A stretch of DNA of 33,128 bases from Anaerolineae bacterium (GTDB lineage: Bacteria; Chloroflexota; Anaerolineae; Aggregatilineales; Phototrophicaceae). Shown piece after piece: positions 10,710 to 33,030 of the stretch (its first letter is position 1; each line of letters starts with the position of its first letter). The notes under the pieces were generated by a model that was not told where the DNA came from, did not search any database, and was given only the letters and a program-made list of their open reading frames with translations. Location: positions 1-33,128 of the forward strand of contig JACDGI010000010.1 in assembly GCA_013821665.1 (NCBI GenBank), in the 5' to 3' direction. Made by a program: the position numbers and the translations under genes.

Positions 10710-10770
10710 CAATTAGTAACCGCTTAAAATGTGTGGAGGGCACATGAACACATCCCCTCCCTTTATCCCT

Positions 10771-12054
10771 CTTTCAGGGGTAGGTATGGTCAAGATAAAG
10801 GTTGAAATTTCCAAGAAGAGCGCGGCCATTGTTCATAAACAAACTCACAAACGAAGACGGGAACATGGCGAATAAAGGCAGCCAGAATTGCTAGTTGACC
10901 GAGCGTAAAGCAAGAAAGACGACGATAACCTTTTTGGGACGGGCTCCAAGTATCGGGTAAGGGAGTGAATGAACTGGCAGGCAGTTGGGATGCAACAGAG
11001 CCGCCGACACTCAGTGTCCATAAAGTGGCGACGGTCAGAACCAACCAGAGGCGTTCGGCACGAGCAGGATCCTGCATCTTGGTATGATGCCAACCCCAAC
11101 CCCCGCGTTTGAGGTCTTTAAAACCGGCTTCAATCCACGAGCGCATCCCATACCAAGCAATATCGGCGTGTTTGGGTGCTAAATCTGTCACGACCAACCA
11201 AGGATCGTCATAGGTTGGGTCATAATGTGCTAACAAGGTGCAGTCGAGTTGGGAATCTTTGGTTTTAAAACAGGTCACACGCCCCGACCAGTCGGGACGT
11301 TGAGCATGAACCAGGCTGGATAAAAGCCGAAAACAGCGATTGCGTTGCGGGCGAAATTGACCCTGTTGGTTGATGCGTAGAAACGGATGCCACTCCACCT
11401 GTAGACACTTCTGGTATAACCATTTGGCATACAAGCCTCGATCCGCTAAAACCAAGACAAACCAGTCGGCAGGGACAGCCGACGATAAATGGTCGATTAA
11501 GCCTTCCCAATGCGGTCGCCACTCGCCTTTTTGCTCACTTTTCAATACTTTCCAAGCCACCGGAATAGCGCATCCCCGATAGACAACACTAATGCTCAGT
11601 ACCGTGAAGATATTCCGAAAACTGGTGGCATCTAATACCAAGGCCAGACGCTGTTCGCTGCTCGCCCACCACGATAATATCCATTTCAGTAAGTCCCCAA
11701 AACTGTGTTCAACCGCTAAACTGCGGCGTTTTTCCCCTCGTTTATCCCTACCCTCATACGTGAATTCCCGTAAACGCTGGCGCAGTGTATTCGGCGATTG
11801 TTCAAGTAGCATACTCAGCAAGCCGCTAATCTTACTGATCCCACAGCATTGGCTTAACACCGCTCCAAAGCTATACAGAGCCAGTACCTTCGCCTCGGCT
11901 GAGTACAAATGCGGTAACTTCCTTGACACGATCTCCATCCATTCCGATAATTCTTGTTGGTGGTGTCTCATTTTCTCAGGTTTCGATTGGTTTTAGAGAA
12001 CTCTATCTTAACCTGTTTTTTTGCCTCACCACCTCAAATACCTACCCCTGAAAG
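10771..12054 (-). mobile_element. IS4-like insertion sequence
   Basis: 17-bp perfect terminal inverted repeat CTTTCAGGGGTAGGTAT (10771-10787) / ATACCTACCCCTGAAAG (12038-12054) flanking the transposase ORF. Confidence 0.85.
10790..11971 (-). CDS. DDE transposase (IS4-family-like)
   Basis: 'LALVLDATSF' (D), 'VLVLADRGLYAKWL' (D), 'WYGMRSWIEAGFKDLKRGGWGWHHTKMQDPARAERLWL' (Y-R-E signature). Confidence 0.9.
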   Translation of the reverse strand: MRHHQQELSEWMEIVSRKLPHLYSAEAKVLALYSFGAVLSQCCGISKISGLLSMLLEQSPNTLRQRLREFTYEGRDKRGEKRRSLAVEHSFGDLLKWILSWWASSEQRLALVLDATSFRNIFTVLSISVVYRGCAIPVAWKVLKSEQKGEWRPHWEGLIDHLSSAVPADWFVLVLADRGLYAKWLYQKCLQVEWHPFLRINQQGQFRPQRNRCFRLLSSLVHAQRPDWSGRVTCFKTKDSQLDCTLLAHYDPTYDDPWLVVTDLAPKHADIAWYGMRSWIEAGFKDLKRGGWGWHHTKMQDPARAERLWLVLTVATLWTLSVGGSVASQLPASSFTPLPDTWSPSQKGYRRLSCFTLGQLAILAAFIRHVPVFVCEFVYEQWPRSSWKFQPLS

Positions 12055-12076
12055 GGGTTGGGGTGGGGGTTCTTTC

Positions 12077-13164: not shown

Positions 13165-13211
13165 TTTCTCTTTGCCTTTATCTTGGCGCTCTCTGCGTCT
13201 TGGCGGTTAAA
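13165..13211 (-). repeat. CGCAGAG-type intergenic repeat (copy 2, minus strand)
   Basis: Minus-strand reading gtttaaccgccaagacgcagagagcgccaagataaaggcaaagagaaa ends next to the ATG of the Gfo/Idh/MocA gene. Confidence 0.75.
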
Positions 13212-13224
13212 CTGTATTTCTTCC

Positions 13225-25280: not shown

Positions 25281-25358
25281 TTAATCGCAGAGACGCAGAG
25301 AAGAACAGCACAGGCGAATTGAACCGCCAAGTCGCCAAGAGCGCCAAGATTAAGGCAG
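25281..25358 (+). repeat. CGCAGAG-type intergenic repeat (copy 3, double)
   Basis: ttaatcgcagagacgcagagaagaac...ttgaaccgccaagtcgccaagagcgccaagattaaggcagg upstream of the aminotransferase. Confidence 0.8.
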
Positions 25359-25371
25359 GAGGTTGGGGAAA

Positions 25372-26802: not shown

Positions 26803-26901
26803 ATTTGGGGTGACGGTTCGGAGGATGGTAGGGAGTGATCTGCCGAGATGAGAGTCACAAGTTGCAAGAAGCAAGTTACAAGACAAGAAAAGCAAATGCA
26901 A

Positions 26902-26996
26902 TTTAACCACAGAGACACAAAGAACACCCAGATCAATGCGGAGAGTGTTAACCGCAGAGTCACAGAGAACGCGGAGATTAAGACAGAGAAAAGTAG
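26902..26996 (+). repeat. CGCAGAG-type intergenic repeat (copy 4, double)
   Basis: tttaaccacagagacacaaagaacacccagatcaatgcggagagtgttaaccgcagagtcacagagaacgcggagattaagacagagaaa upstream of the M20 peptidase. Confidence 0.8.
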
Positions 26997-27090: not shown

Positions 27091-28380
27091 ATGATTGATG
27101 CGGTGGTGTTGTTGCAGGAATTGGTGAAAATTCCATCACCGAATTTGCCGGGGGATACACGAGCGATTGCGGCTTATATTGCCGAGGTGATGCGCGAGGC
27201 GGGGTGCATGGTGAAGATGCTTGCACCGGAGCAAAAACCAGAGGCGCAAAGTGTGGTGGCGACATTTGGTCAAGGTGCGCCGGTGATTATGCTGCACGCA
27301 CATATTGATACGGTGCCGATTGCGGTGAATGAGGCACAGCGCTGGAGTGTCGATCCGTATGCAGCGGTGATTCAAGAAGGGAAACTTTACGGCAAAGGCA
27401 GTGTGGATGATAAAGCGCCGTTGGCCGCGATGATGGCGGTGATTTTGGAGAAAGCGCATCCTCTCCCCCTAACCCCCTCTCCGCTGCGCAGCGAGAGGGA
27501 ACCAGAAAATGCAAAACCTCTTTCTCAACACGGAAACGAGGGGGAACAAATAGAGGGGACGTTAGTGCTGGTGGCGGCGGCGGAAGAGGAAACAGGTGGA
27601 GTGTTAGGTACCAAATGGCTGGCAGAAAATGGGCATCTGCCAATGTGTGATTTTATTGTGGTGGGCGAGCAAACGCATAACCATGTAGCGACAGCGCATA
27701 AGGGTGTGATGCGTGCGACGGTTCGCGCTACTGGACGGTCGGTTCATGCGACCAACCCTGACCGGGGTGTGAATGCGATCACAGCGATGGCGAAGGCAGT
27801 TCTGGCGCTGGATGCTTACCACAAGGAACTGGCAACGCGACCGCATCCGATTGTGGGCGTTCCGACTTGCAATGTGGGCGTGATTCAAGGTGGGAGTACA
27901 GCGAACGCGGTGCCGGATAGCTGCGTGGTTTATCTCGACCGTCGAATGGTTCCCGGTGAAAATCCAGCGGTGGTGCAGGATGAAATGCGAGCGGTAATCG
28001 ATGGAGTCGATGCAGGTGAGGCAACGCTCAGCATTGGCGAGTTCCAAACCTCAAACTGGTTTGAATCGACGGCAGTATCAGCGTTGGCGCAGACATTTTT
28101 GGGATGTGTGGAGGGGGAGTTCAGAAAAACCCTCGCCCCCCAGCCCCCTCTCCCTCATGGCGAGGGGGAGTCAGAAAATCCTTATTATCCGGGGCCGATT
28201 GGGTATTTGCCGGGAAGTGATGCCAAACATCTGACAGGCGTGACGCGCGGTGAGATGATCATCTTCGGGCCGGGGAGCTATGAGGTGGCTCACGCGTTTG
28301 ACGAATATGTGGATGTGAAAGAGTTTGCAAGTACAGTGAATATCCTACGGGCATTTGTGGAACATACAATACGGGATTAA
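27091..28380 (+). CDS. M20 family metallopeptidase (ArgE/DapE-like)
   Basis: 'VIMLHAHIDTVPIAVN', 'LYGKGSVDDKAPLAAMMAVIL', 'LVAAAEEETGGVLGTKWL', 'TCNVGVIQGGSTANAVPDSCVVYLDRR', 'YLPGSDAKHL'. Contains two palindromic insertions. Confidence 0.93.
   Translation: MIDAVVLLQELVKIPSPNLPGDTRAIAAYIAEVMREAGCMVKMLAPEQKPEAQSVVATFGQGAPVIMLHAHIDTVPIAVNEAQRWSVDPYAAVIQEGKLYGKGSVDDKAPLAAMMAVILEKAHPLPLTPSPLRSEREPENAKPLSQHGNEGEQIEGTLVLVAAAEEETGGVLGTKWLAENGHLPMCDFIVVGEQTHNHVATAHKGVMRATVRATGRSVHATNPDRGVNAITAMAKAVLALDAYHKELATRPHPIVGVPTCNVGVIQGGSTANAVPDSCVVYLDRRMVPGENPAVVQDEMRAVIDGVDAGEATLSIGEFQTSNWFESTAVSALAQTFLGCVEGEFRKTLAPQPPLPHGEGESENPYYPGPIGYLPGSDAKHLTGVTRGEMIIFGPGSYEVAHAFDEYVDVKEFASTVNILRAFVEHTIRD
27454..27557 (+). 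repeat. GC-rich palindromic element inserted in frame in the M20 peptidase gene
   Basis: Core hairpin CCCTCT-c-CGCTGC/GCAGCG-AGAGGG (27475-27499); encodes HPLPLTPSPLRSEREPENAKPLSQHGNEGEQIE. Confidence 0.75.
28111..28179 (+). repeat. Second palindromic element inserted in frame in the M20 peptidase gene
   Basis: Hairpin CCCTCGCC (28130-28137) / GGCGAGGG (28159-28166), flanked by near-identical GAGGGGGAG(T)TCAGAAAA. Confidence 0.75.
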
Positions 28381-28455
28381 TCGCCAAGACGCAGAGAGAT
28401 ACACGAGTTTAACCGCAGAGGCGCAGAGAACGCCGAGAGTAAACAGAGCAGAGAA
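28381..28455 (+). repeat. CGCAGAG-type intergenic repeat (copy 5, double)
   Basis: tcgccaagacgcagagagatacacgagtttaaccgcagaggcgcagagaacgccgagagtaaacagagcagagaaa upstream of the amidohydrolase. Confidence 0.8.
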
Positions 28456-29882: not shown

Positions 29883-29894
29883 GGCAAATACGGA

Positions 29895-29966
29895 TTAACC
29901 ACAGAGACACAGAGTAAAGCAGAGAAGAATTAACCTCAGAGATGCAGAGAGTTAAGAGAAAAGCAA
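29895..29966 (+). repeat. CGCAGAG-type intergenic repeat (copy 6, double)
   Basis: attaaccacagagacacagagtaaagcagagaagaattaacctcagagatgcagagagttaagagaaaag upstream of the M14 peptidase. Confidence 0.75.
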
Positions 29967-29970
29967 AGCG

Positions 29971-31719
29971 ATGAGCTACAACATTGAATTCGGGGAATAT
30001 TTTCTGTTTGATGAGCTGACGAGTCATTTGAAGGCGCTGGCGAATAGTTATCCGGCACTGGCAACGTTGGAGTCGTTGGGAAAAAGTTGGCGCGAGCGTG
30101 ACATCTGGTGCCTGACGATCACCAACAGCGCGACCGGTGAACATACGACTAAACCGGCCTTTTATATCGATGCACATATCCACGCGGAAGAAGTGACTAC
30201 ATCGCATACGGCGCTGTATACGATCTGGTATCTGCTGACGAATTATGGAAGCGATGCGCAAGTCACTTGGCTGCTGGATAACACCACGTTTTATATCATC
30301 CCACGACTGAATCCGGACGGCGCAGAAATCAGTTTGACGACGGCCCATCATTGGTGTGGGAACGGGCGCTATCTACCGGGCGAGGAACAGACGCACGGTT
30401 TGTGCCAGCAGGACATCAACGGTGATGGATTGATTGTGCAAATGCGCATCAAAGATGACGCGGGCGAGTGGAAAATTTCCAAGGATGACCCGCGCTTGAT
30501 GATCCAACGGCAAGCGGGCGAAATCGGTGATGGGCCTTATTACCGCTTGTATCGCGAGGGGTTGATCAAGGGCGATTGGGACGGCGTGACGATTGATATT
30601 GAACGTCCGCGCGACGGCAACCTGAACCGCAATTTTCCCGCCGGATGGTGGTCGGAGCAGCGTCAATATGGCGCGGGTGATTTACCACTTTCAGAGCCAG
30701 AAGCGCTGGCTTGCGCACAATTTATTTTAAGTCACCCGAATATCGCGGGGATGCAGTGCTATCACACGCATGGCGGTTTACATCTACGACCATCGTTGAT
30801 CGCACCGGATGCGACGTTACCAAGAAGTGATCTGGCACTCATCAAACGGATCGGAGCGATGGGTACGGCTATCACCGGTTATCCAACCATTTCGGTGTAT
30901 GAGGAATTTACCAGTGATCCCGACAATCCACGGACGGGGTCGTTGATGCAGTGGTCATATGACGAGATGGGCATCATCACCTTCTCGACGGAGTTGTGGA
31001 ACCCTGAGTTGGCGGCGGGTTTGCAAGATCCGGCGAAGTATCAAATCCGAGCGCGTTCGACCGAGGATGAAGTTAAGCTGCTCAAATATAACGATGAGCA
31101 TCTGGGCGGCAAAGGCTTTGTAAATTGGGAGCCATTTGAGCATCCGCAGTTGGGTTCAATTGAGATTGGCGGATGGACGCATATGTATACCTTCCGCAAT
31201 CCGCCGCCAGCATCCATGGCGACAACTGAGAAGGCACGAAATTTCCTTCGGGATACGATCCACAATAACTGCTTATTCACGCTCAAACATGCGGCTTGTA
31301 CACCTTTGGTACAAATCGAGTCAGTGAAGGCCGAATCACTGGGTGCGAATTTATATAAGGTAACGACGGTGGTGGCGAATGTGGGTTTCCTGCCGACGAA
31401 TATGACGGCACGGGCATTGAAGCATGGGACGGCGGGAAGTGTGAAAGCAGAATTACAGTTATCCCCTCCTCCCAGCCCCCTCTCTGCGAAGCGGGGAGGG
31501 GGAGAAGTCCAATTGATTATGAACGCACAAAGTCAAGATCTAGGGCATTTAGCGGGGCGTGATGAACGGGTGGCGACGTGGTCACCGTGGATGACAGATT
31601 GGCATCATCCAAAAGGCAAAGCCGAGTGGTTGGTGCGCGGTGATGCGGGCAGTACGATCACGATTACGGCAGGCGCTCAACGGGCGGGATGGAAACAAGC
31701 ATCGGTGACGTTGGAATAG
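29971..31719 (+). CDS. M14 family zinc carboxypeptidase
   Basis: 'YIDAHIHAEEVTT' (HxxE), 'IIPRLNPDGAE', 'GMQCYHTHGG' (His ligand), 'TFSTELWNPE' (catalytic Glu). Confidence 0.92.
   Translation: MSYNIEFGEYFLFDELTSHLKALANSYPALATLESLGKSWRERDIWCLTITNSATGEHTTKPAFYIDAHIHAEEVTTSHTALYTIWYLLTNYGSDAQVTWLLDNTTFYIIPRLNPDGAEISLTTAHHWCGNGRYLPGEEQTHGLCQQDINGDGLIVQMRIKDDAGEWKISKDDPRLMIQRQAGEIGDGPYYRLYREGLIKGDWDGVTIDIERPRDGNLNRNFPAGWWSEQRQYGAGDLPLSEPEALACAQFILSHPNIAGMQCYHTHGGLHLRPSLIAPDATLPRSDLALIKRIGAMGTAITGYPTISVYEEFTSDPDNPRTGSLMQWSYDEMGIITFSTELWNPELAAGLQDPAKYQIRARSTEDEVKLLKYNDEHLGGKGFVNWEPFEHPQLGSIEIGGWTHMYTFRNPPPASMATTEKARNFLRDTIHNNCLFTLKHAACTPLVQIESVKAESLGANLYKVTTVVANVGFLPTNMTARALKHGTAGSVKAELQLSPPPSPLSAKRGGGEVQLIMNAQSQDLGHLAGRDERVATWSPWMTDWHHPKGKAEWLVRGDAGSTITITAGAQRAGWKQASVTLE
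31463..31504 (+). repeat. GC-rich palindromic element inserted in frame in the M14 peptidase gene
   Basis: CCCCTCCTCCCAGCCCCCTCTCTGCGAAGCGGGGAGGGGGAG, encoding LSPPPSPLSAKRGGGE. Confidence 0.7.
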
Positions 31720-31724
31720 GGAGT

Positions 31725-31763
31725 TTGAACCGCCGAGTCGCAGAGAACGCCAAATTCAAGGCA
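31725..31763 (+). repeat. CGCAGAG-type intergenic repeat (copy 7)
   Basis: ttgaaccgccgagtcgcagagaacgccaaattcaaggc after the M14 stop. Confidence 0.75.
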
Positions 31764-31783
31764 TAGCAGCAGGATTTTAAGTA

Positions 31784-31811
31784 AGCGGACGGGATGTATC
31801 CCGTCCCTACA
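31784..31811 (+). repeat. Short stem-loop repeat (copy E): GGACGGGAT-gt-ATCCCGTCCCTACAA
   Basis: Perfect stem followed by CTACAA. Confidence 0.65.
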
Positions 31812-31837
31812 AACGCCATATTTTATGGGTAGAAATA

Positions 31838-32980: not shown

Positions 32981-32992
32981 ATAGCAATACAA

Positions 32993-33030
32993 TTTAACCA
33001 CAGAAACGCAGAGAAAATCAGAGAGAAAAC
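32993..33030 (+). repeat. CGCAGAG-type intergenic repeat (copy 8)
   Basis: tttaaccacagaaacgcagagaaaatcagagagaaaac upstream of the last CDS. Confidence 0.75.

Follow-up and report, generated by a model that had tools for sequence, protein, structure and literature searches.

The M14 zinc carboxypeptidase gene of an Anaerolineae contig was found to carry, in frame, a 47-bp palindromic repeat (31461-31507) that is very probably one copy of a genus-wide family of selfish, REP-like palindromes that proteins tolerate where the reading frame stays open. This reading draws on the many copies of the repeat, on relatives whose sites are empty, on conserved genes that hold the repeat in frame, on the random use of frames, on placement in predicted loops and on purifying selection. 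The window that we analyzed (33,128 nucleotides) spans all of contig C718, which belongs to a fragmented bin of 8.1 Mb in 1025 contigs; at 88% completeness and 6.5% contamination, the bin may include foreign contigs.

Three copies of one palindromic repeat in the window

An M20 and an M14 peptidase gene of the window hold three copies of the repeat, with the following features (offset, codon start relative to the repeat; R2, covariance model described below).

27091-28380, + strand: M20 peptidase gene, 429 aa (PF01546/PF07687)
27458-27504, + strand: repeat copy 1, in frame in M20, offset 2 (R2 E = 2.3e-10); most relatives lack it
27514-27551, + strand: probably what is left of another, decayed repeat, AAACCTCTTTCTCAACACGGAAACGAGGGGGAACAAAT, which completes M20 insert 1 (from reading the sequence; lies in the extra aligned segment)
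28129-28173, + strand: repeat copy 2, in frame in M20, offset 0, net +19 aa (R2 E = 1.1e-11); absent from 16/16 aligned relatives
29971-31719, + strand: M14 zinc carboxypeptidase gene, 582 aa (PF00246, E = 1e-44; predicted fold matching carboxypeptidase T by Foldseek, E = 3e-16)
31459-31506, + strand: extra segment of M14, 48 nt long where relatives have 12 nt, a net gain of 12 aa (protein and DNA alignment)
31461-31507, + strand: repeat copy 3, 47 bp, in frame in M14, offset 1, head ATCCCCTCCTCCCAG followed by a hairpin; relatives lack it
31476-31502, + strand: hairpin of copy 3, arms 31476-31487 and 31491-31502, 3-nt loop, -24.1 kcal/mol

Since our first covariance model, R1, had included window copies, R2 was built without any of them. 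R2 scored copy 3 at 29.3 bits (E = 1.3e-5, 33 kb searched) and also matched both M20 inserts, which bears out the first-pass annotation in placing all three in one repeat family. An Rfam search of the window gave no match. The palindromic in-frame insertion that had been noticed in M14 is real, given this score, the relatives without it and the ~130 copies in the genome; its sequence is as described, and its unit is slightly longer, running from 31461 to 31507 rather than from 31463 to 31504. It encodes the peptide LSPPPSPLSAKRGGGE (residues 497-512, codon 497 beginning at 31459). Among the window copies, copy 3 has diverged furthest. Its stem-loop is the reverse complement of that of its nearest kin (loci L002, L003 and L005) and its head is not inverted, an apparent loop inversion relative to these loci. 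Fold computation gave best-folding arms longer than CCCCTCC/GGAGGGG alone. The fold had a z of only -1.39 relative to shuffled sequences, so hairpin stability alone is not the evidence; the case against chance is family membership, not fold energy.

Relatives have empty sites and the host genes are under purifying selection

The M14 orthologues of 15 informative relatives, at 67-87% identity, all lacked the insert. The net gain in the window is 36 nt, and the insert replaces 12 nt instead of being a clean addition; on these alignments, 31461-31507 is a true insertion. The first M20 insert consists of 27458-27504 and the apparent decayed second repeat. Three further genomes (G003, G015 and G012) have different repeats in the same loop, the remaining 13 relatives have none there, and the shared-site inserts of the window's own genome (G000), G003 and G015 differ in sequence and length. 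An M20 tree computed with the inserts left out requires one change in the G000/G003/G015 clade and a second in G012, as forced by its starred branches. The natural reading of this tree would be that the loop gained repeats at least twice independently.

Relative to close relatives, dN/dS was 0.05-0.07 for M14 and 0.06-0.09 for M20, with high dS in both, indicating past purifying selection on both genes. Columns assigned to metal and catalytic residues, on the basis of what is generally known of the M14 and M20 families, were invariant in the alignments, and the M14 gene with its repeat is apparently intact.

AlphaFold models of M14 and M20 (pTM 0.84 and 0.86) placed the three inserts between regular elements at low confidence. 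M14 residues 497-513 lie between predicted strands 491-496 and 514-517 with pLDDT of about 49, and the low-confidence segments of M20 are residues 123-156 and 348-368. These models support the view, put forward at first pass together with a call for structural modelling, that the three Pro-rich inserts would form disordered loops.

Other repeats in the window

The spacers of the window contain other repeats. A second, different palindrome, GGACGGGATGTATCCCGTCCCTAC, occupies 31785-31812 in the M14-M24 spacer; with the complement of GTAG at its end, it resembles a REP of the GTAG type. An interspersed repeat in about ten copies fills most spacers of the window's right half:

25281-25360, 26898-26988, 28377-28449, 29887-29970, 31721-31766, 32986-33024 and 13173-13213: repeat TTAACC[AG]CAGAG[AT]C[AG]CAGAGAA...

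A DDE_Tnp_1 transposase gene (10790-11971) is bounded by 20-bp inverted ends, CCTCTTTCAGGGGTAGGTAT, and forms an insertion sequence at 10768-12057. At locus L004, a copy of the palindromic repeat is followed by an end sequence similar to these ends.

The repeat family across genomes

Alignment of window and genome copies defined a unit of 42-48 bp in which a C-rich head that is unpaired, A[AT]CCTC[AT]CCCCCTA[AG], precedes a hairpin, CCCCCTCTCC-loop-GGAGAGGGGG. With R1 at E < 1e-3, we found ~130 full-length copies in the window's own genome, and 51 of the 61 related genomes, the own one included, gave family matches. Exact 23-mers of head and stem were also found in named genomes of Chloroflexota, Cyanobacteria, Hymenobacter and other groups. 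In named genomes an exact pattern matched 93 copies, 12 of them within long ORFs unvetted for coding, which hints that the family is more widespread; one of the 12 comes after LGSATPSLETW in a Nostoc ORF. The pattern shuts one frame by its own stop and so says little on frame usage. In Hymenobacter (L246, L248, L249, L251, L273, L301 and L308), the heads often occur as inverted pairs ~85-150 bp apart and facing outward; these pairs are REPIN-like, and some lie within long ORFs.

Genic copies use all three sense frames

For G000, G003 and G015 we retrieved the sequence flanking the copies, located the repeats with R1 (n = 248) and predicted genes from codon usage, with 20 genes of the window as the training set. 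Further in-frame copies, for which the first-pass annotation had proposed a scan, proved numerous: 41 of the 248 lie in frame inside genes (8/107 in G000, 17/66 in G003 and 16/75 in G015), about 17% of the total; among solo copies in the three related genomes, 26% are genic. A strict test was passed by 28 genic copies. Pfam identified most host ORFs, including a class-III aminotransferase, PNP_UDP_1, VitK2_biosynth, Glycos_transf_1, UPF0261, Phage_portal, FtsK_SpoIIIE, HSDR_N and methyltransferases. The insert of the class-III aminotransferase separates two blocks that align with the PDB homologue 1vef. An FtsK/EccC-like ATPase gene (L453, G015:C18, 1441-3969) carries about five in-frame repeats, three of them in tandem. 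In-frame repeats were also seen in phage terminase and portal genes in two pairs of loci, L006 (G000:C774) with L495 (G015:C5) and L442 with L471, at similar places in both species of each pair, so the family enters phage-type genes too.

The three window inserts had been thought to share orientation and frame, and a conserved frame had been taken to mean selection for an open, Pro-rich linker, with random frame usage named beforehand as the refutation. The shared orientation holds. The frame is not shared, as codons start at offset 2 (27458), 0 (28129) and 1 (31461), and usage was random among the strict sense-orientation copies of the three genomes (8/9/8; chi-square p = 0.98). A conserved frame was therefore rejected. 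All three sense frames of CCT/CCC...GGAGGGG give Pro/Leu/Ser and then Arg/Gly/Glu, with a mean Pro content of 21-26% in every sense frame. The similar wording of the window peptides thus arises because the composition of the repeat yields like peptides in all sense frames.

Orientation, for which a test of bias had also been suggested, was biased: the C-rich strand was the coding strand (sense) in 33 genic copies and the opposite held in 8 (n = 41). Stop content alone predicts 61.6% sense, from which the observed 33:8 departs (p = 0.015), as does the 25:3 of the strict set from its stop-only expectation (p = 0.0016). Copies between two co-directional genes lean likewise (73:42, p = 0.005). When stops were combined with this intergenic strand bias, 73.6% sense was expected and the full set no longer deviated (p = 0.38). 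Fewer stops and the intergenic strand bias can account for the sense bias; with the latter as control, peptide selection is not needed as its cause, and a small extra sense preference may remain.

Probable selfish spread with tolerance, and the alternatives

We consider it very probable that the repeat would behave as selfish DNA whose copies spread to many sites, that gene-breaking copies would be lost, and that those staying open in a surface loop would be retained as Pro-rich linkers of nearly neutral effect. In each sense frame, 71-89% of copies have no stop on the C-rich strand, which suits the repeat to genic residence. Linker-specific selection is not needed beyond an open frame and tolerance.

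Mobilization of the palindromes as non-autonomous elements by a RAYT/IS200-type HUH transposase, as for GTAG REPs, is a refinement compatible with selfish spread, and we regard it as doubtful. The hairpin with its unpaired head is REP-like, as is placement downstream of genes (intergenic copies favor convergent over divergent spacers, 44:16); Y1_Tnp genes are present in the genus and correlate weakly with repeat copy number (rho 0.30-0.45). However, a search within about 1.5 kb of 34 Y1_Tnp loci found one nearby repeat (E = 1e-5) and one marginal match, and co-occurrence over the 61 genomes was poor: G032, G034, G073 and G078 hold 29-75 repeats without a Y1_Tnp match, and several Y1_Tnp-bearing genomes have no repeats. 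Genome size correlates better with copy number (0.64), and the unpaired end lacks a GTAG or CGTC tag.

The repeat may itself have adapted to genes, evolution having shaped its C-rich strand so that each of the three frames is open and hydrophilic, which we judge unlikely. If this were true, a landing in the sense orientation in a loop would be tolerated in any frame, and the family would be a selfish element with coding DNA as habitat for a quarter of its solo copies, continually remodelling protein loops across a genus.

Somewhat less likely again is that the palindrome spreads only as the center of larger MITEs bounded by terminal inverted repeats, with genic copies as leftovers. Flanks are indeed shared by 66 of the 107 own-genome copies, nearly all of these intergenic and most lying in two larger units with inverted ends; these form two main families, with ends such as GGTnnGACTnCATTAAGTGG...CCnCnTTTAGTGTnGnGCTACC and GACGACAnTTTT...AAAAGTGTCGTC. 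Part of the copy number thus comes from those units and not from movement of the lone palindrome. Inverted ends surround many of the 66, but solo genic copies are without those flanks; genic residence is concentrated among solo copies (37/145 vs 4/103 for non-solo copies, p = 3e-6), and the copies of G003 and G015 are mostly solo.

Least probable, and in our judgment very improbable, is that the inserts were selected because conserved frame and orientation yield a useful Pro-rich linker: the 33:8 sense bias, the higher Pro content and somewhat greater hydrophilicity of sense over antisense peptides and the M20 loop with inserts in four species speak for it, but the frames are spread over all three in the strict set and in the window, stops and intergenic strand bias absorb the orientation bias, and the inserts at the shared M20 site vary in sequence and length.

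Comparison with known palindromic repeats

Natural pairs of filled and empty sites are now available for measuring the effects of loop insertions on enzymes. There is also a warning for annotation, in that Pro-rich 'linkers' like LTPSPSPSGRGE in such proteins are repeat DNA.

Rickettsia palindromic elements (RPEs) of 105-146 bp lie between genes and in frame within conserved protein genes, and in one tested case the RPE-bearing host protein was still active (PMC2229807, citing Ogata 2000 and Abergel 2006). Compared by description, our family resembles them as a palindromic repeat found both between genes and in frame in conserved genes. It differs in its length of 42-48 bp, its C-rich head, its unrelated lineage and the about 12-26 aa that it adds. 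It is a palindrome in ~130 copies that folds into hairpins, and its in-frame insertions in conserved genes are absent from relatives; we would therefore set it, by description, beside the RPEs as a new family of protein-coding palindromic repeats.

REPs of the GTAG and CGTC super-families (Di Nocera 2013; PMC3733652) are 20-40 bp hairpins with one unpaired end, lie mostly between convergent or co-directional genes and in several species occur in part wholly inside ORFs; GTAG REPs are reported in Chloroflexi too, and two of the Rickettsia elements, RPE-4 and RPE-6, count among the short REPs with a CGTC tag (PMC3733652). The present repeat shares the hairpin with one unpaired end, the preference for convergent spacers and the presence of some copies in ORFs. 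Unlike them, it has A[AT]CCTC[AT]CCCCCTA[AG] at its unpaired end, where the GTAG/CGTC tetranucleotide was sought and is absent, shows no RAYT linkage at the loci searched and is about 17% genic in the three genomes. It is not a GTAG or CGTC REP. NEMIS, ERIC and YPAL MITEs are non-coding repeats fused in frame to genes (PMC2229807); our family is like them in such fusions and in that its hairpin also occurs inside larger units with inverted ends, and differs in that its genic copies are shorter and without those ends. Earlier descriptions of in-frame palindromic insertions come mostly from Rickettsia and from REPs within ORFs of some other species. What is new here is a family outside the known tags and RAYT linkage, ~17% of it genic in three related genomes, that has recurrently entered one enzyme loop.
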